A DNA stretch of 64,000 bases, from NCBI GenBank assembly GCA_947450645.1, contig CANFWH010000005.1, positions 1 to 64,000 of the forward strand, written 5' to 3'. The stretch is from Comamonadaceae bacterium. Lineage in GTDB: Bacteria > Pseudomonadota > Gammaproteobacteria > Burkholderiales > Burkholderiaceae_C. The notes below the pieces were generated by a model that searched no databases, was not told the DNA's origin, and saw only the letters and a list, made by a program, of their open reading frames with translations. A program made the translations under genes and the position numbers. The first letter of the stretch is position 1; every line of letters starts with the position of its first letter. Shown one piece after another: positions 41,347 through 54,332 of this stretch.

Positions 41347-41410
41347 GATGATTGCTTATAAGAATGAGAGAAATTGGATGAGGCTATTATCTAACTCAAA
41401 GTGCAGGTGT

Positions 41411-41435
41411 GGATTCTCGCCTTCGTGGGAATGAC
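41411..41435 (-). repeat. Dispersed 25-bp hairpin repeat, copy 1 (imperfect)
   Basis: Read on the minus strand this matches the copy at 56260-56284 except for two or three substitutions (core GTCATTCCC ... GGCG(A/G)GAATCC). The inverted arms are imperfect here. It is an intergenic repeat type that is read as MDSRLRGND when translated from the other strand, which explains a spurious N-terminal extension of the next gene. Confidence 0.75.
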
Positions 41436-41453
41436 CGACCGATGAAAGATGTT

Positions 41454-42905
41454 ATGAATTTTTATGACGAAATGTATGGCCTAGATGTCAAGCAAACGGG
41501 GCCGTTGCCGCATTACGAAGCCTATCAACAGTGGGCGAAAGGCTATAACTCTGAGGCCATGGCGCATAAGCGTGCGCAGGCCGATGCAGCCTTTCGGCAA
41601 GTGGGCATTACCTTTGCGGTGTATGGCGATGATGCAGGCACGGAGCGTTTAATTCCATTCGACTTGATCCCGCGCATCATTCCGTCTAACGAATGGACGA
41701 CCTTGCAAAAAGGTTTGATTCAGCGCGTGCAGGCGCTCAATATGTTTGTGCACGACGTGTATCACAACCAGCACATCGTCAAAGCGGGCATCGTGCCTGC
41801 GGAGCAGATTTATTTGAATGCCCAGTACCGCCCGCAAATGCAGGGCGTGCAAGTCGCTGGGAATAACTACTGCCACATCTCGGGTGTGGATATCGTCCGT
41901 GCAGGGCAGGGCGAGTTCTATGTTTTAGAAGACAACTTGCGCGTGCCTTCTGGCGTGTCGTACATGCTGGAAGACCGCAAAATGATGATGCGGCTGTTCC
42001 CAGAAGCGTTTAGCACGATGCCGATTGCGCCGATTGAGCACTACCCCGATTTGCTTTTGCAAACCCTACGCGAGAGCGCACCCGTAGGCGTGGATAACCC
42101 CAGCGTCGTCGTGATGACGCCTGGCATGTACAACTCGGCTTATTTTGAGCACGCGTTTTTGGCGCAGCAAATGGGCGTGGAGCTGGTCGAAGGCAAGGAT
42201 ATGTTTGTCGATGAGGGCCTCCTTTACATGCGCACCACGCAAGGGCCGCAGCGCGTGGACGTGATTTATCGCCGCATTGATGACGACTTTTTAGACCCGC
42301 TCGTCTTCCGTGCCGATTCCAATTTAGGCGTGCCAGGCTTAATGTCGGTGGTGTGCGCAGGGCGTGTGACCATCACCAATGCGGTGGGAACAGGCGTTGC
42401 GGACGATAAATCGACGTATCCATTTATCCCCGAAGTGATTAAGTTCTATTTGAATGAGGAGCCGATCTTGCATAACGTGCCAACCTACCAGTGTCGCAAA
42501 CCAAGCGACCTGTCGTATGTGCTGGCGAACCTCAAAGACTTGGTGGTGAAAGAAGTTCACGGTGCTGGCGGTTACGGCATGCTCGTTGGCCCTGCCTCAA
42601 CTCAGGCGCAGATTGAAGACTTCCGCGCAAGACTCATCGCCAAGCCAGGCGGCTACATTGCCCAGCCCACGCTGGCGTTATCGACTTGCCCCACTTATGT
42701 GGAGAGCGGCATTGCACCGCGCCACATCGATCTGCGGCCTTATGTGCTGTGCGGTAAAGAGACGCGGCTCGTGCCAGGAGGCTTATGCCGCGTGGCACTC
42801 GGCGAAGGTTCGCTGGTGGTCAACTCATCGCAAGGTGGTGGTACCAAAGACACTTGGGTGCTTGAAGACGCAAGCGCTGACACGCAGGAGGCCGCATCAT
42901 GCTGA
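41454..42905 (+). CDS. Circularly permuted ATP-grasp protein (Anbu operon)
   Basis: About 483 residues from MNFYDEMYGLDV; an ATG at 41442 or a GTG at 41409 inside the hairpin repeat would lengthen it. Family features: FRQVGITFAVYGDDAGTERLIPFD near residue 55 (seen as GITFAVYGDDAGTE), FYVLEDNLRVPSGVSYMLEDR, VDVIYRRIDDDFLDPL and KEVHGAGGYGMLVGP. These belong to the circularly permuted ATP-grasp amidoligase-like group, predicted to form amide or peptide bonds using ATP. It is gene one of four: its stop overlaps the alpha-E start by 7 bp. Family knowledge places this set with the Anbu protease; the product is unknown. Confidence 0.93.
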   Translation: MNFYDEMYGLDVKQTGPLPHYEAYQQWAKGYNSEAMAHKRAQADAAFRQVGITFAVYGDDAGTERLIPFDLIPRIIPSNEWTTLQKGLIQRVQALNMFVHDVYHNQHIVKAGIVPAEQIYLNAQYRPQMQGVQVAGNNYCHISGVDIVRAGQGEFYVLEDNLRVPSGVSYMLEDRKMMMRLFPEAFSTMPIAPIEHYPDLLLQTLRESAPVGVDNPSVVVMTPGMYNSAYFEHAFLAQQMGVELVEGKDMFVDEGLLYMRTTQGPQRVDVIYRRIDDDFLDPLVFRADSNLGVPGLMSVVCAGRVTITNAVGTGVADDKSTYPFIPEVIKFYLNEEPILHNVPTYQCRKPSDLSYVLANLKDLVVKEVHGAGGYGMLVGPASTQAQIEDFRARLIAKPGGYIAQPTLALSTCPTYVESGIAPRHIDLRPYVLCGKETRLVPGGLCRVALGEGSLVVNSSQGGGTKDTWVLEDASADTQEAASC

Positions 42906-43855
42906 GCTCCACCGCCGATCATTTATTTTGGATGGCGCGTTATACCGAACGCGCTGAAAACACGGCTCGGATGCTGGACATCCATTTGCAAAGCAGTCTG
43001 CTGGCAGGTGGCAAAAGCGAAGACCAGCGTAGCCGAGCGGCACGCGCTATGCTCACCATCTCTGAGCTAGAGCCCGCGTATCACGAGGCGCACGACGCAA
43101 TCAGCAGCGACTCGGTGCTGCGATTCATGGTGACGGATGCCAGCAATGCGTCCAGCATTTACAGCGCACTTTATGCAGCACGCGAAAACGCTAGAGCCGT
43201 CCGTGGTGCGCTGACCACCGAGCTGTGGGAGACTGTCAACGTGACGTGGCTAGAGTTGCAAGAGCGACTCGCGGCTGATGCGTGGACAGCAGACATGCCC
43301 GCGTTTTTTGAATGGGTCAAGCACCGCGCGCATCTCACGCGTGGCGTGACTTCGGGCACGATGCCGCGTGACGATGCGTATCGCTTTGTGGCGCTGGGTA
43401 ATGCGCTGGAACGCGCAGACAACGTGGCGCGGCTGCTCGACGTCAAGTTTTTTGAAGGTGCTGCGATTGAAGCGCAAAACTGGGATGCGATGGTTGAAAA
43501 GGGCGAGTACTACCACTGGGCAGCGATTTTGCGTAGCGTCTCGGGCTTTGAGATTTATCGCAAAACCTACAAGGGCGCCATTACACCAGCGCGTGTGGCG
43601 GAGCTTTTGATTCTTCGCGCTGACATGCCTCGTTCGCTGATGGCATGCATGAGCGCACTGTGCAATCAATTGGGATGGCTCGCCAATAAGAGGAGCGCAC
43701 AGACGACTCGGCAAGCAGGTCTCTTGCAAGCGCAGATTCAGTTCGCTAGCATTGACGACATCTTGCAGCAAGGCTTGCATGCCTATTTGACGCAGTTCTT
43801 GGAGCGCATCAACGTCATTGGCCAAGGCATTAGCCAAGACTTCTTAGTAGGTTAA
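42899..43855 (+). CDS. Alpha-E domain protein (DUF403)
   Basis: 318 residues, almost entirely helical. The start MLSSTADHLFWMARYTERAENTARMLD is diagnostic (seen to RYTERAENTA), and later LERADNVARLLDVKFFEG and LRSVSGFEIYRKTYKG recur in the family. Alpha-E proteins always accompany the permuted ATP-grasp protein; function unknown, possibly a scaffold or acyl/peptide carrier partner (inference). The gene overlaps the ATP-grasp stop by 7 bp and precedes the transglutaminase gene by 7 bp, so it lies in the middle of the operon. Confidence 0.93.
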   Translation: MLSSTADHLFWMARYTERAENTARMLDIHLQSSLLAGGKSEDQRSRAARAMLTISELEPAYHEAHDAISSDSVLRFMVTDASNASSIYSALYAARENARAVRGALTTELWETVNVTWLELQERLAADAWTADMPAFFEWVKHRAHLTRGVTSGTMPRDDAYRFVALGNALERADNVARLLDVKFFEGAAIEAQNWDAMVEKGEYYHWAAILRSVSGFEIYRKTYKGAITPARVAELLILRADMPRSLMACMSALCNQLGWLANKRSAQTTRQAGLLQAQIQFASIDDILQQGLHAYLTQFLERINVIGQGISQDFLVG

Positions 43856-43862
43856 ACACATC

Positions 43863-44684
43863 ATGCGCCTCATCATTCAACATGACACCCATTACCACTA
43901 CGACGATGCGCCCAAGCATCTAATTCAACTGCTGCGTCTGTCGCCGCGTGAGGATGCACACCAGCGTGTGGTCGAGTGGCGCATCTCTAGCCTTGGCAAA
44001 CAAACCGCCTTCAGAGACGCGTTTGGCAATCTCACGCACAGCCATATGCTGAGTAATCCACCGTCCGACGTGCATTTGCGTGTGGCGGGGATTGTGGATA
44101 TTTCGCCGCTGGTAATGGGTGTTGTGCCAGACGACCATCACACGCAAAGCGTGCCTGCTATGACGTACCTTGTGCCCACGCCTTTGACGGCCAGCTTTGC
44201 AGCCATCGAGCTACTCGCCAAGCAAACGTTGCCGCACGGTTTGCAAACAGGCTTAGATGCGCTTATTTTGGCGCGGGCGATTTGCCAAGCGGTGCTCTAC
44301 ACCTCGGGTAACACCGACGTGACCAGCACGGCTGAGCAAGCGTTTGCGATGGCCAGCGGTGTGTGCCAAGACCACGCGCATGTAATGATCGTCGCTTGCC
44401 GAAGCCTCGGTGTGAGCGCAAGGTACGTGAGTGGCTATGTCGATCCAGGTCACGACGATGCAAGCAAGAGCCACGCCGCCGCCAGTCATGCGTGGGTGGA
44501 TGTCTGGTTGCAAAACAAATGGGTCAGCATCGACGTGACGAATGGCATCTACGCCAGTGACTCGCATTGCCGCCTAGCGATTGGGCGGGATTATTTAGAC
44601 GCTTGCCCTGTGCGCGGCATGCGCGAAGGCGGGCAAACTGAACAATTAGATGTGTCGGTGACGGTACAAAGTTTGCAGCAATAA
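43863..44684 (+). CDS. Transglutaminase-like cysteine protease (Anbu operon)
   Basis: 273 residues: N-terminal beta domain (MRLIIQHDTHYHYDDAPKHL) and a transglutaminase core with catalytic Cys168 (SGVCQDHAHVMI), His209 (ASHAWVDVW) and Asp224 (SIDVTNG). The triad is complete, so it can act as a cysteine peptidase or transamidase; it may cleave or transfer the peptide made by the ATP-grasp partner (inference). Located third in the ATP-grasp/alpha-E/transglutaminase/Anbu run, 10 bp before the Anbu ATG. Confidence 0.93.
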   Translation: MRLIIQHDTHYHYDDAPKHLIQLLRLSPREDAHQRVVEWRISSLGKQTAFRDAFGNLTHSHMLSNPPSDVHLRVAGIVDISPLVMGVVPDDHHTQSVPAMTYLVPTPLTASFAAIELLAKQTLPHGLQTGLDALILARAICQAVLYTSGNTDVTSTAEQAFAMASGVCQDHAHVMIVACRSLGVSARYVSGYVDPGHDDASKSHAAASHAWVDVWLQNKWVSIDVTNGIYASDSHCRLAIGRDYLDACPVRGMREGGQTEQLDVSVTVQSLQQ

Positions 44685-44694
44685 AATACGCGGC

Positions 44695-45552
44695 ATGACT
44701 TATTGCATCGCCATCAAATTAAAGCAAGGACTCGTGATGTTGTCCGACAGCCGCACCAATGCGGGCGTGGATCACATCAGTACCTTTCGCAAAATGACCG
44801 TGTTTGAAAAGAAGGGTGATCGCGTCATTACCTTGCTCTCTTCGGGCAACTTAGCGATTACGCAAATGGTGCGCCAGCGCATCAATCAAGGTTTTGAAAA
44901 TGCCGATGGCACAGCGCGCACGATTTGGAATGTGCCCACGATGTTTGACGCGGCGCAGTTGGTCGGTGAAGCCGTGCGAGCGGTGGCCGCTAAAGAAGCC
45001 GAGGCGCTTAAAGCCGCTGATGTTGAGTTCAATATCAGTTTGATCTTGGGTGGGCAAATCGGCAGCGAAGAGCCACGCCTCTTTCACATGTATGCAGCGG
45101 GCAACTTTATTGAAGCAGCGGACGAGAACTGTTATTTCCAAATTGGTGAAGCCAAATATGGCAAGCCGATTTTGGATCGCGTGATCGAGTCACATATGAC
45201 GTTAGATGAAGCCGCCAAGTGCGCTTTGATTTCGATGGACAGTACGCTCAAATCTAATTTGTCGGTGGGTCTGCCACTCGATTTATTGATTTATGAAACG
45301 AATGCACTGGACGTGACGCACGTAACGCATATTGATGAGAAGAACGAGTACTTCCAAATGATTCGCAACAGCTGGGGGCAAAAGCTCAAGCAAGTGTTTG
45401 GCGAAATTCCAGATCCCAGTTGGTTGCCGCTCAAGGCGGGCGAGTCGCGCTATAAACCGCTGTTAGAAACACCGCAGTCCTTCGCGCCGCAAACGGCGGT
45501 GCTCACGTTTCAGCAGTTGTCGTTGGGTGGCAAGGTAGCGCAAGCACAGTGA
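44695..45552 (+). CDS. Proteasome-type peptidase Anbu
   Basis: 285 residues. Starts MTYCIAIKLKQGLVMLSDSRT: after Met removal Thr1 would be the N-terminal nucleophile, with Asp17 and Lys32 (FRK) completing the proteasome-type active site. The Anbu (ancestral beta subunit) family differs from HslV by its longer C-terminal part and its association with the ATP-grasp/alpha-E/transglutaminase genes, exactly as here. It should be a cytoplasmic self-assembling peptidase; no ATPase partner is encoded nearby. The hipA stop converges 10 bp beyond its stop. Confidence 0.93.
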   Translation: MTYCIAIKLKQGLVMLSDSRTNAGVDHISTFRKMTVFEKKGDRVITLLSSGNLAITQMVRQRINQGFENADGTARTIWNVPTMFDAAQLVGEAVRAVAAKEAEALKAADVEFNISLILGGQIGSEEPRLFHMYAAGNFIEAADENCYFQIGEAKYGKPILDRVIESHMTLDEAAKCALISMDSTLKSNLSVGLPLDLLIYETNALDVTHVTHIDEKNEYFQMIRNSWGQKLKQVFGEIPDPSWLPLKAGESRYKPLLETPQSFAPQTAVLTFQQLSLGGKVAQAQ

Positions 45553-49689: not shown

Positions 49690-50601
49690 ATGAACCGTTT
49701 AGTCAAACAAATTAGCTCCGTTATTGTAGGCAAAGAGCCGCAAATTCAACTTGCCGTTACCTGTTTATTAGCAGGCGGTCATTTACTGATCGAGGACGTT
49801 CCAGGCGTTGGCAAAACTACGCTGGCGCACGCACTGGCCAAAAGCTTGGGGCTTTCGTTTAACCGCGTGCAGTTCACCGCCGATTTGATGCCTTCCGATT
49901 TGACGGGCGTATCGATTTACGACCGCGCACGAGAAGAGTGGATTTATCACGCTGGTCCATTGTTTACACAGGTGCTACTCGCGGATGAAATTAATCGCGC
50001 CAGCCCCAAAACGCAAAGCGCACTTCTAGAGGCGATGGAAGAAAAACAAGTGACCGCAGAAGGCCAAACTCGCGCTTTGCCTGCGCCGTTTTTTGTGCTC
50101 GCCACACAAAATCCACGTGCTGGATTTGGCATAACGGCAGGAACGAATGCACTGCCTGAGTCACAACTCGACCGTTTTTTAATGCGCCTCTCGCTGGGCT
50201 ATCCAGATGCCGCATCCGAGCGTCAATTGCTCGCTGGCCTCGACTCGCGCAAGTTGATTGAAGCCATGCCTTCCGTGATGTCGGCCTTGCAATTGGCCGA
50301 AGCCCAGCAAGCTGCTATGCGCGTGCATGCCAGTGATGCGCTCTTGGATTACGTGCAGCGCGTCACTGCTGCCACCCGCGCTAAGCAATGGTTTTCGCAA
50401 GGGATTAGCCCGCGTGCCGCGATTAGCTTGCTCCGCGCGGCCAAGGCCTTTGCGCACCTAGCTGGGCGTGACTTCGTCAGTCCCGATGATGTGAAAGCGG
50501 TGGCCGAATCGGTCATGGCGCACAGACTCGCCGATTTGCCAAACGCCACGCGCAGTACCCAGCAGCAACTCGCTGCCATGCTGGCTAGCATCCCGCTTTG
50601 A
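49690..50601 (+). CDS. MoxR-family AAA+ ATPase
   Basis: 303 residues from MNRLVKQISSVIVGK. Walker A EDVPGVGKTTLAHAL, Walker B VLLADEINRASPKTQSALLEAMEE, sensor ATQNPRAGFGI, and the C-terminal lid with QGISPRAAISLLRAAKAFA. MoxR proteins act as chaperone-like ATPases for metal insertion or assembly and commonly precede DUF58 and TgpA genes, as here. No Shine-Dalgarno precedes ATG 49690; an in-frame ATG at 49642 lies in the opposite gene and also lacks one. Confidence 0.92.
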   Translation: MNRLVKQISSVIVGKEPQIQLAVTCLLAGGHLLIEDVPGVGKTTLAHALAKSLGLSFNRVQFTADLMPSDLTGVSIYDRAREEWIYHAGPLFTQVLLADEINRASPKTQSALLEAMEEKQVTAEGQTRALPAPFFVLATQNPRAGFGITAGTNALPESQLDRFLMRLSLGYPDAASERQLLAGLDSRKLIEAMPSVMSALQLAEAQQAAMRVHASDALLDYVQRVTAATRAKQWFSQGISPRAAISLLRAAKAFAHLAGRDFVSPDDVKAVAESVMAHRLADLPNATRSTQQQLAAMLASIPL

Positions 50602-50622: not shown

Positions 50623-53355
50623 ATGCACTTGAATCTACGCTGGGATACTCGCCAATCAAAGTGGTGGACGACATGGATGAGCCGCAAACCAGCGAGCGAT
50701 ACGTACACACTCACGGCGCACAACATCTATGCGCTGCCCACTCGCGCAGGCTGGATGATGCTGGTGACGGTTGCCGTGCTGATGCTAGCCACGATCAATT
50801 ACCAATTGAGCCTGGGATACGTGCTCATCTTTTTGCTGATGGGCGCAGGTGTCGTGGGATTGTTTTTGGCGCATCGCGCTCTCACGCAGATGCAGTTACG
50901 GCTATCGACGGCGCAGCTGCTTTGCGGCAAGCTGGGCGATGAGATTGAGGTGCTGATTCAAACAGGAAGCTTTGATGAGCGCCTGCGCCTAAAGCTCACG
51001 CAAATAGGTTCGCAGTCCTTACCCAGAGTGATCTGCGAGACGCGCTATCCGCTGGGCTTGCTCCGCCTTTGGAGCGTATGGCGGCTTGCCAGTACCGTTC
51101 AAGTCGATCCACCAGACGCGGGCGGCGGTACTCGTGCAAGCCACAGCCAATGGGCGTTTGCAGCCCATGCCGATGCTGAGGACAATCCCGATCAAGGCAG
51201 TATGAAGACGGATATTCGCGCGTACCGCGTGGGCGATGCGCCGCGGGATGTGCTGTGGAAGACTGTTGCCAAACGCCCTGATACGCCTAGTAACTGGGGC
51301 GTGCGCGAATGGGGCGACGAGCCGCCAGAGCAAGTACAGCAGCGCGCCGTGCCCTTGCCGCAGCATCGTGATTCGCAGACCGACATTGATGCTTTGCGCC
51401 GCGCGCGGGACGCCGTCCGCATGCGTGATCTCACGCTTTTGCTGGCGCTGCTCTTTATTGCTTTGCCGTTTTTTCAGCACTTGGTGTGGTGGTATCCGCT
51501 CATGGCTTGTAGCTTGATTGCGTGGCGATTTTGGCAAATCAAAATGGCTGCAGCGCCTTCGCCAAAATGGCTGCAACTCCCGCTGGTCATGGCCTTGGGA
51601 ATTTTGGTTTGGTTGCTGTTCCGCAGTTTTAGTGGGATTGAAGCTAGTGTGTCGGCGTGCATTGGCCTACTCGGCATCAAAGCGCTAGAACTGCCGCACT
51701 CTGCGCGTACCGTTGATACGAGTCAAAATTTTACGCGTGACCACTGGGTCTTGACGTTTCTTGGGCTCTTCACGCTCTCGGCACATTTTTTGGTATCGCA
51801 GTCACTCACCAGTAGCGTGCAGGTGGTGCTGGGGCTTGCAGCGCTGTTATATGTGCTGGTGCTCTCGCATAGCAAACTGCCCGCTAAGCCATATGGATTG
51901 TGGTCTCGCCCAGTGCGGGTGACGCTCATCTTGGTCGTTTTTGGTGCGCCGTTTATGGCGGCGATGTTCTTTTTATTCCCGCGTTTTGCGCCGCTGTGGT
52001 CGCTGCAAGAGCAAAAAACAGTGTCCCTCACAGGCCTGACCAGTGAGATGCAGGTGGGCGATATGGGCGAGATTTCGCGCGATAACAAAATCATTCTTCG
52101 CTTGCAAATGGATGCACCACCTAACTTGGATAGCAAAGACATTTACTTGCGAAGCTACGTATTGCCGCGCTTTGATGGCCGCACGTGGAAGAGCTATCGG
52201 CAAGGCAACCCAGAAGTGGCAAAACAAAAAGCGTTCTTAGATGCGCCTGAGTTTGCAGGACGCGGCTACACCGTGATGCTCGAGGATGGCAAGCCCTTTC
52301 ACACCTCAATTTCAACCGACTCGCGTAATGATCCAGAAAGCAAGAGCCGTACTTACTTGCAAGCGGCAGCGGCTCTGCCACTAGGTAGTAATCCGCGTAC
52401 AAGCCAATGGATACAAGGATTAGCGCAAGACGCGCCATTTAAAAATTTCGACACCACCGATTGGAGCAACTATTTACTGGGCGTTTTGAAGAGCGGCGGC
52501 TACCGCTACACGCTTGAGCCAGGTACGTATGGATTGCATGTGGTGGACGAGCTTTTGTTTGATCGCAAGCTCGGTTTTTGCGAGCATTACGCTACAGCCT
52601 ATGTGGTGGCGATGCGCAGTCTTGGCATTCCTGCCCGCGTGGTGACGGGCTATCAAGGCGCGGAGACGAATCCCATTGATGGCCTGCAAGTGGTACGCAA
52701 CAGCAATGCCCACGCATGGGCGGAGTATTGGGGACAACTGCCCGCTAGCCCAGAGTGGACATGGCGCCGCGTAGACCCAACGGCGGTGATTGCGCCCGCT
52801 CGGATCCAAAATGCCGAAAGTTTTAATCAAGCGCCACAGCAATTGGTGGCGCAAGGACGCGGGGTGTGGTCGTCTAGTTTGCTGGCTCCCGTGTTCAAAA
52901 GTTTATGGCGAGCAAGGCAAAGTTGGGAAGCCACTAATCACGCATGGGAAGCGTGGTTCTTTGGCTACAACCAAGCGGCGCAAATGAGTTGGCTCAAACG
53001 CCTTGGCATCGACGATCCCAGTTGGAAGGATTTGGTGCAGCTGTTAGATATCGCCTTGCTCGGGCTATTTGGCCTTGGCATCATCGTTTATGTGTGGCGC
53101 GGCAGGCAGGGCATTGATCCATGGATGGCACTCGTGGAGGCCATACGGAATAAGGCTTTGCAGCAAGGCGTGCAGCTTTCCGAACACGCCACGCCGCGTG
53201 AAATTGCTTTAGCGTTGCCACATCGGACTATGCAAATGACACAGTGGTTAATGGATTTGGAAGCGGCAAGATATCGCTCTAAAAAAATTGATGTTGCTAC
53301 ACTCAAGCGGCAATCCAAAAATATTTTTAAATCCTATTTCAAAGCACGTTCGTGA
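50623..53355 (+). CDS. DUF58-TgpA transglutaminase fusion protein
   Basis: 910 residues in one open frame. Residues 1-240 look like a shortened DUF58 protein: membrane segments (about 44-84) and the motif DIRAYRVGDAPRDVLWKTVAKR (197-218; seen DIRAYRVGDAPRDVLWKTV). From about 262 the sequence becomes TgpA: helices to about 450, then a periplasmic transglutaminase core with Cys653 (LGFCEHYATAYV), His697 (NAHAWAEYW) and Asp718 (RRVDPTA), a membrane helix near 835 and a cytoplasmic tail. In related genomes these are normally two adjacent genes. The DUF58 part is missing its C-terminal about 90 residues. It follows moxR by 21 bp; mltB overlaps its stop by one base. Probably a periplasmic peptidoglycan- or envelope-related transamidase system. 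Confidence 0.85.
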   Translation: MHLNLRWDTRQSKWWTTWMSRKPASDTYTLTAHNIYALPTRAGWMMLVTVAVLMLATINYQLSLGYVLIFLLMGAGVVGLFLAHRALTQMQLRLSTAQLLCGKLGDEIEVLIQTGSFDERLRLKLTQIGSQSLPRVICETRYPLGLLRLWSVWRLASTVQVDPPDAGGGTRASHSQWAFAAHADAEDNPDQGSMKTDIRAYRVGDAPRDVLWKTVAKRPDTPSNWGVREWGDEPPEQVQQRAVPLPQHRDSQTDIDALRRARDAVRMRDLTLLLALLFIALPFFQHLVWWYPLMACSLIAWRFWQIKMAAAPSPKWLQLPLVMALGILVWLLFRSFSGIEASVSACIGLLGIKALELPHSARTVDTSQNFTRDHWVLTFLGLFTLSAHFLVSQSLTSSVQVVLGLAALLYVLVLSHSKLPAKPYGLWSRPVRVTLILVVFGAPFMAAMFFLFPRFAPLWSLQEQKTVSLTGLTSEMQVGDMGEISRDNKIILRLQMDAPPNLDSKDIYLRSYVLPRFDGRTWKSYRQGNPEVAKQKAFLDAPEFAGRGYTVMLEDGKPFHTSISTDSRNDPESKSRTYLQAAAALPLGSNPRTSQWIQGLAQDAPFKNFDTTDWSNYLLGVLKSGGYRYTLEPGTYGLHVVDELLFDRKLGFCEHYATAYVVAMRSLGIPARVVTGYQGAETNPIDGLQVVRNSNAHAWAEYWGQLPASPEWTWRRVDPTAVIAPARIQNAESFNQAPQQLVAQGRGVWSSSLLAPVFKSLWRARQSWEATNHAWEAWFFGYNQAAQMSWLKRLGIDDPSWKDLVQLLDIALLGLFGLGIIVYVWRGRQGIDPWMALVEAIRNKALQQGVQLSEHATPREIALALPHRTMQMTQWLMDLEAARYRSKKIDVATLKRQSKNIFKSYFKARS

Positions 53356-54332
53356 TGCGGTTTTTTATTTCATTTTTTGCGCTTTTCTTTTTGATGATTG
53401 GTCTGCAAGCCACGGCGAATGCAGCTTCCAAGAAGGTTAAACGCGCCAAACATGGTGCACAGCACGTGGTGAGCTACGCCAAAAATAAAGATGCTATGGC
53501 GCTAGCTGACGCGATTACCGCCAACGAAAACCTTGACTCCGCGTGGGTGCGAGCGCAAATGCGTGAGGCCAAATTCTTGCCGCGCGTGGTGCAGTTAATG
53601 ACCCCCGCGCCCGTGGGCGACAAAAAAAATTGGGCCGTGTACCGTAGCCGATTCGTTACGCCTGCATACATCAATGCAGGCGTAGCTTTTTGGCAAGCCA
53701 ATCAGGACGTGCTCTTGCGAGCCGAGAAGGAATACGGCGTGCCTCCCCGCATTGTGTTAGGCATCTTGGGTGTGGAGACGATTTATGGTCGCAACACAGG
53801 TGGCTTTCGCGTGTTAGATAGCTTGGCAACACTGTCATTTGACTACCCGCTTGAGCATCCACGGCGTGAAGCCAGGGTGCTGTATTTTCGCGGTGAGCTG
53901 GCTCAGCTTTTGGTGTTGGCTCAGTACATGAAGCGTGATCCCAAAAGTTTCAAGGGCAGCTATGCAGGTGCAATGGGTTGGCCGCAATTTATGCCCAGCT
54001 CGTGGTTGAAATATGCCGTCGATTTTGATGGCGATGGTAAGGTTGATTTATGGCATTCGCAGGCCGACATGATTGGTTCGGTCGCCAATTATTTTCAAGC
54101 ATATGGTTACAAGCCACAGCTAGCTGGGCGTGCAGGATTGGCCTTTGAGCAAGCGACCGTAGAACTAGAAAATGGTGATGACGTTCCCACGCAATATCCT
54201 GTCGATGACAACTTCTTTGTCATCACCAAATACAACAGCAGTTACTACTACGCGGCGGCGGTGTTAGAGCTAGGCAGTGCGATTGAACAAGCGATTGAAC
54301 AGGAGATTAAAAATGGACAAGCTAAAAACTAA
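53355..54332 (+). CDS. mltB: Lytic murein transglycosylase B
   Basis: 325 residues from the ATG whose first base is the last of the TgpA stop (TGATG); a GTG one codon earlier is possible. Signal peptide MRFFISFFALFFLMIGLQA, no lipobox seen, so a soluble form in the periplasm. MltB catalytic Glu in LGILGVETIYGRNTGG, plus YAGAMGWPQFMPSSWLKYAVD, DGDGKVDLWHSQADMIGSVANY and ITKYNSSYYYAAAVLEL. It cleaves glycan strands to 1,6-anhydromuramyl products. Placement after the TgpA fusion supports a shared envelope role. Confidence 0.94.
   Translation: MRFFISFFALFFLMIGLQATANAASKKVKRAKHGAQHVVSYAKNKDAMALADAITANENLDSAWVRAQMREAKFLPRVVQLMTPAPVGDKKNWAVYRSRFVTPAYINAGVAFWQANQDVLLRAEKEYGVPPRIVLGILGVETIYGRNTGGFRVLDSLATLSFDYPLEHPRREARVLYFRGELAQLLVLAQYMKRDPKSFKGSYAGAMGWPQFMPSSWLKYAVDFDGDGKVDLWHSQADMIGSVANYFQAYGYKPQLAGRAGLAFEQATVELENGDDVPTQYPVDDNFFVITKYNSSYYYAAAVLELGSAIEQAIEQEIKNGQAKN

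Follow-up and report, generated by a model that had tools for sequence, protein, structure and literature searches.

PA2875 and PA2874 of Pseudomonas aeruginosa, which we take to be a MoxR ATPase and a DUF58 protein respectively, form with the transglutaminase gene tgpA the described arrangement closest to the locus analysed here. These three genes are reported to be co-transcribed, the periplasmic part of TgpA is reported to have transglutaminase activity, and its topology is given as five N-terminal helices, a periplasmic domain and one C-terminal helix (PMC3507681). According to the same report tgpA appears essential and PA2875 appeared non-essential, and the result for PA2874 was not conclusive (PMC3507681). 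For MoxR ATPases it is common to act with a partner protein, NorQ-NorD being a pair that is reported to have been structurally studied (PMC13036017), and background on MoxR and Bat operons is available (PMC11834572). No established role for the MoxR-DUF58-TgpA cluster was found in the literature, nor any experiment linking MoxR to TgpA activity, nor any paper joining DUF58 with DUF3488. The literature on DUF58, MoxR, transglutaminase and gene fusion, represented mostly by the openings of abstracts, does not describe a fused form; the cluster is already known and its fused form is new as far as this literature shows.

The window is a stretch of 64,000 nucleotides from contig 5 of a Comamonadaceae draft genome (G000; 2.47 Mb in 76 contigs, 93.8% complete), whose genus was sampled by five genomes (G000 to G004). 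Its locus resembles the P. aeruginosa cluster PA2875-PA2874-PA2873 (tgpA) in the triad transglutaminase, the DUF3488/TgpA_N membrane part and the third place of this enzyme in the co-transcribed cluster (PMC3507681), and differs from those separate genes in being fused and shortened in this genus. The features of the locus are as follows.

49690..50601, + strand: MoxR-type AAA+ ATPase gene (Pfam AAA_3, E 9.9e-57, and AAA_lid_2; likely start 49690 from the congeners, longest ORF from 49642)
50623..53355, + strand: fused DUF58-TgpA gene, 910 aa; same fusion in G004 (L041/L053) and G001 (L033/L054)
50623..50916, + strand: DUF58 N-terminus with a two-helix membrane hairpin, residues 1-98 (hydropathy peaks at 46-64 and 64-82; 84-86% identity in congeners)
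50920..50979, + strand: beta-region deletion stretch, residues 100-119 (net about 30 residues of the separate DUF58 proteins missing, from the DUF58 profile and the alignment with 11 separate relatives)
51211..51276, + strand: DUF58 motif, residues 197-218 (from the sequence; segment 191-230 has 93-97% identity in congeners)
51310..51417, + strand: linker, residues 230-265 (outside both the DUF58 and the TgpA profile; about 70 C-terminal DUF58 profile positions missing here)
51436..52287, + strand: TgpA_N (PF11992), membrane part and start of the periplasmic part (Pfam)
52234..52317, + strand: TgpA periplasmic deletion stretch, residues 538-565 (TgpA profile, net loss of 38 positions)
52495..52779, + strand: transglutaminase core (PF01841), residues 625-719, with C653, H697 and D718 (Pfam; homologous to PDB 6g49)
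53352..54332, + strand: MltB-like lytic transglycosylase gene, overlapping the stop codon of the fusion (alternative ATG at 53355)

A sequence-only reading of the window had described the 910-codon frame as a DUF58 motif at residues 197-218 followed from about residue 262 by a TgpA protein with a complete Cys653/His697/Asp718 triad. The frame, the motif (DIRAYRVGDAPRDVLWKTVAKR) and all three triad residues are present, and TgpA does follow DUF58; the boundary shifts, as the DUF58 profile ends at residue 229 and the TgpA profile starts at 266 rather than near 262, leaving residues 230-265 matched by neither in G000. TgpA_N was matched at residues 272-555 (E 4e-38, 131.7 bits against a cut-off of 30) and Transglut_core at residues 625-719 (E 7.8e-18), and matches to PDB 6g49, the periplasmic part of a TgpA-type enzyme, flank residues 538-565 on both sides. 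At the hydropathy threshold used, the DUF58 part has two helices and the TgpA part four N-terminal ones plus one more, where the P. aeruginosa protein is described as having five N-terminal helices. AlphaFold run on the fusion from three sequences gave a mean pLDDT of 33.3 and no usable model.

The Pfam DUF58 model (PF01882) had no match in the whole fusion, in residues 1-259 or, by genome search, in G000. None of three separate relatives from the same family reached the PF01882 cut-off (one sub-threshold at E 0.077, two with no match), so its absence is no argument against the DUF58 label, and it is a short motif that gives these same-family proteins the DUF58 name. A profile of 11 separate relatives aligned with residues 1-230 of three fusions at an hhalign E of 5.5e-36, by which these residues are clearly homologous to DUF58 proteins that relatives encode separately. 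Against a canonical PF01882 protein from G001 (contig C91), the 11 relatives matched over 34 residues around the motif (E 4.9e-4, probability only 32%) and the fusions alone at E 0.1 and a probability of 0.6%. On that contig (L092) the canonical DUF58 protein (219 bits) stands between a second MoxR gene and another protein, a set present only in G001 among the five genomes. This third protein is presumably VWA-like, in an arrangement that would resemble a Bat-type operon.

The same reading had held that the DUF58 part is shortened both mid-protein and at its C-terminus, and on that ground that the join is a deletion-fusion rather than a simple loss of a stop codon. Both statements are borne out by profiles of 20 separate DUF58 and 21 separate TgpA proteins, in which net about 30 and about 70 DUF58 positions are missing. 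In G000, DUF58 profile positions 11-96 correspond to residues 11-99 and positions 140-252 to residues 115-229, so that 15 residues of the beta region stand for 43 positions (net 28 lost). The corresponding stretch of G001 has 4 residues for 34 positions (net 30 lost), and in G004 the two DUF58 matches overlap by nine residues, which places the loss less sharply. After the motif, profile positions 254-323 are unmatched in all three species. The possibility that so short a DUF58 part is of normal length falls away, since the separate relatives have about 100 profile positions more. Shortening also affects the periplasmic part of TgpA: residues 538-565 of G000 (28 residues) represent 66 profile positions and 18 residues of G004 represent 56, a net loss of 38 in each. 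The fused protein is thus trimmed in three places, the middle and the C-terminus of DUF58 and the periplasmic part of TgpA (52234-52317; G000 and G004); the last of these goes beyond the sequence-only reading, as does the finding that the fusion is common to the genus.

That reading had pointed to sister genomes, and the same join was found in two of them. G004 carries the fusion at full length (residues 1-903, 80% identity); G001 carries residues 1-555, across the join, on one contig (82%) and the remainder on another (73%). Both match deposited Comamonadaceae MAGs, CANFCG010000017.1 and JANXRP010000062.1 respectively. The frame is therefore open across the DUF58-TgpA join in three species, the join-spanning pieces of the other two MAGs having 79-82% identity and a linker without an indel. 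In G003 (78% complete) contig ends cut the locus at residue 195 and it resumes at 662, and the fusion state is not judgeable there. In G002 (99% complete) neither the fusion nor its DUF58 half had a match, and the only MoxR match was a weak one of 31% elsewhere. At the corresponding place in G002 (L081:1474-3409), MoxR, DUF58 and TgpA are cleanly gone between one flanking gene and MltB. The flanking genes are kept directly beside MltB, and we take them to be deacetylase-like and SRPBCC-type, the latter bordering the gap. Such a clean loss in a 99% complete congener indicates that the whole MoxR-DUF58-TgpA module is dispensable in G002.

Outside the genus the two genes were separate in every relative read, as the sequence-only reading had expected of related genomes. 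A search of the same family matched 357 of 399 genomes, and among the 150 matches listed, four from this genus and 146 from outside, no fusion was seen in the 146. The DUF58 open frame has at most 669 residues in 143 of these 146 genomes, shorter than the fusion; three of those frames (236, 269 and 292 residues) are under whole-protein length, possibly cut by contig ends, and a fusion is not excluded there. Frames of 967-997 residues in G096, G201 and G399 were considered as fusions and are in fact separate overlapping ORFs, and the long frames of G008 (1339), G014 (1122) and G034 (1015) are two ORFs each with at least one stop between them. The other same-family genomes (L036-L040, L065-L070, L082, L086-L088, L090) share the order DUF58 then TgpA on one strand; they differ in that their DUF58 proteins have the additional profile positions and that stops or frame changes separate the genes.

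A phylum sample of 398 genomes gave 121 above the TgpA_N cut-off, some of whose shorter TgpA frames are possibly cut by contig ends and thus uninformative. Ten TgpA frames of at least 900 residues, G000 aside, were candidates for fusion, and the DUF58 gene is separate in all ten, placed in another ORF by blastp in nine and recognised by eye in the tenth (G504, L091). Among 16 plasmid records none had a single place covering 80% of the query; four Cupriavidus records cover both halves, with separate genes in all three replicons read (NZ_CP046333.1 left out). The viral scan found no relative of the fusion, and the scan of genome contigs returned two loci, both from this genus. On these comparisons the fusion is derived and, as far as examined, restricted to this genus.

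The MoxR gene lies directly upstream of the fusion, an adjacency kept in 4 of the 5 genomes of the genus, with 89-91% identity in three congeners. Ten loci with separate genes, five of them from this family, have MoxR in every case and an MltB-like frame in six; the MltB-like name of the downstream gene in the window comes from blastp similarity to MltB frames elsewhere and from Pfam SLT_2 in two such frames. Elsewhere in the window, at 41409-45552, lies a run of four genes. From their sequences we take them to resemble an operon of ATP-grasp, alpha-E, transglutaminase-like and Anbu-type proteasome-related proteins.

TgpA and the downstream MltB-like transglycosylase share one stop-free frame in G005 and G028 (L039:2059-6189 and L040:3202-6486; genus g25). 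Of 11 genomes in the genus of G028, nine have a stop-free match across the TgpA-MltB join and the other two match the MltB part only; one of these two, G803, has a frame of 415 residues and its genes may be separate. Joint frames of this kind (genera g25 and g2) are like the fusion in uniting neighbours of the same cluster and unlike it in joining TgpA to the transglycosylase rather than to DUF58, and this second fusion supports tight coupling within the cluster.

Constraint was estimated as Nei-Gojobori dN/dS between species, the segment borders being approximate where G004 is compared with G001; several segments are close to saturation at synonymous sites, which makes the values rough, and all are well below 1. 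They are 0.13-0.18 for the hairpin (1-98), 0.14-0.20 for the beta region (99-190), 0.055-0.08 for the motif segment (191-230), which has the highest identity of all segments (93-97%), and 0.23-0.42 for the linker (231-266), the fastest-evolving segment compared, with 47-53% identity and no indels. TgpA_N gave 0.12 in the three main comparisons and 0.26-0.29 over the short stretch that lies in G001's second piece, the transglutaminase segment 0.05-0.11 and the C-terminal segment 0.14-0.23; the neighbours gave 0.06-0.09 (MoxR) and 0.10-0.17 (MltB). Selection is purifying on both halves, and the reading frame that connects them is maintained.

These values bear on whether the DUF58 half is a remnant in decay, left to TgpA as no more than a leader or an additional membrane anchor. 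The roughly 100 missing profile positions and the dispensability of the whole module in G002 would fit such decay, and the low dN/dS of the motif is matched by that of the transglutaminase segment. A motif segment that is the best conserved by identity and evolves as slowly as the transglutaminase segment is not what decay would leave, however, the hairpin and beta region (0.13-0.20) are only slightly faster than TgpA_N (0.12), and MoxR has been kept next to the fusion; we regard the remnant explanation as unlikely. A deletion introduced in assembly, which the sequence-only reading had named for bases 51300-51420, could be suspected in a draft of 76 contigs, but two other deposited MAGs have the same join, their linkers free of indels. 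Such an error would have to be repeated in three assemblies, always in frame, and is not credible; we give it practically no weight.

The fusion might also be nominal, with TgpA made also or mainly as a separate protein by internal initiation near Met267. Residue 267 of G000 and its counterpart in G004, residue 258, are both encoded by ATG, and GGGA stands about ten bases ahead of this codon in G000; GGGA is missing from the G004 context, however, and none of ATG, GTG and TTG occupies the position in G001, where the nearest are an ATG at 258, nine codons earlier, and a TTG at 273. The linker, moreover, is in frame and of constant length in three species. On these sequence contexts a separate TgpA start is not well supported, and we consider it quite improbable that the fusion is nominal. 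Cleavage of a full-length protein within the linker, restoring two proteins, would be in keeping with the fast evolution of that segment, but the released DUF58 piece would still be without its C-terminal part, and we hold this to be very improbable.

The reading we prefer over these, and consider fairly probable, is that, within a MoxR-DUF58-TgpA operon of one genus, deletion-fusion turned the genes for DUF58 and TgpA into one that encodes a single membrane protein, the DUF58 half serving as a MoxR adaptor to TgpA with a dispensable C-terminus. On this view MoxR, an ATPase of the cytoplasm, would act on TgpA, with its presumed periplasmic active site, by way of the DUF58 half as an adaptor anchored in the membrane, and the fusion would fix the pairing of adaptor and enzyme covalently. 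We infer the adaptor role and the fixed pairing from the fusion itself, the joint loss in G002 and the constraint. More speculatively, tethering may have made the C-terminal part of DUF58, perhaps a docking surface, dispensable, with the hairpin and motif staying constrained. With five plus one helices, as in P. aeruginosa, TgpA would place the join with both its ends on the cytoplasmic side, which would make a direct join topologically possible; this topology is a predicted one, hydropathy giving four N-terminal helices. A MoxR-type ATPase working with a partner protein is also found in NorQ-NorD and other MoxR/VWA pairs (PMC13036017); NorD differs in carrying a VWA domain with a metal site, and Pfam found no VWA match in the fusion. 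An action of MoxR on TgpA, tied to it by the fusion, is likewise something that we infer, and the finding that PA2875 appeared non-essential and tgpA essential in P. aeruginosa means that TgpA may work there without MoxR, which counts against a strict need.

The fusion suggests that DUF58 and TgpA normally work as one unit. Tentatively, and with less confidence than in the adaptor scheme, the protein may be seen as a natural covalent adaptor-enzyme machine, in which TgpA would be the dedicated client of the MoxR-DUF58 pair, the C-terminal docking module of DUF58 could be dropped once tethered, and the hairpin and motif would be the minimal MoxR-responsive unit. As a natural fusion it is evidence for joint action of DUF58 and TgpA at a fixed ratio, and it trims the DUF58 protein down to a smaller core under constraint, offering concrete constructs for asking whether MoxR controls a periplasmic transglutaminase.
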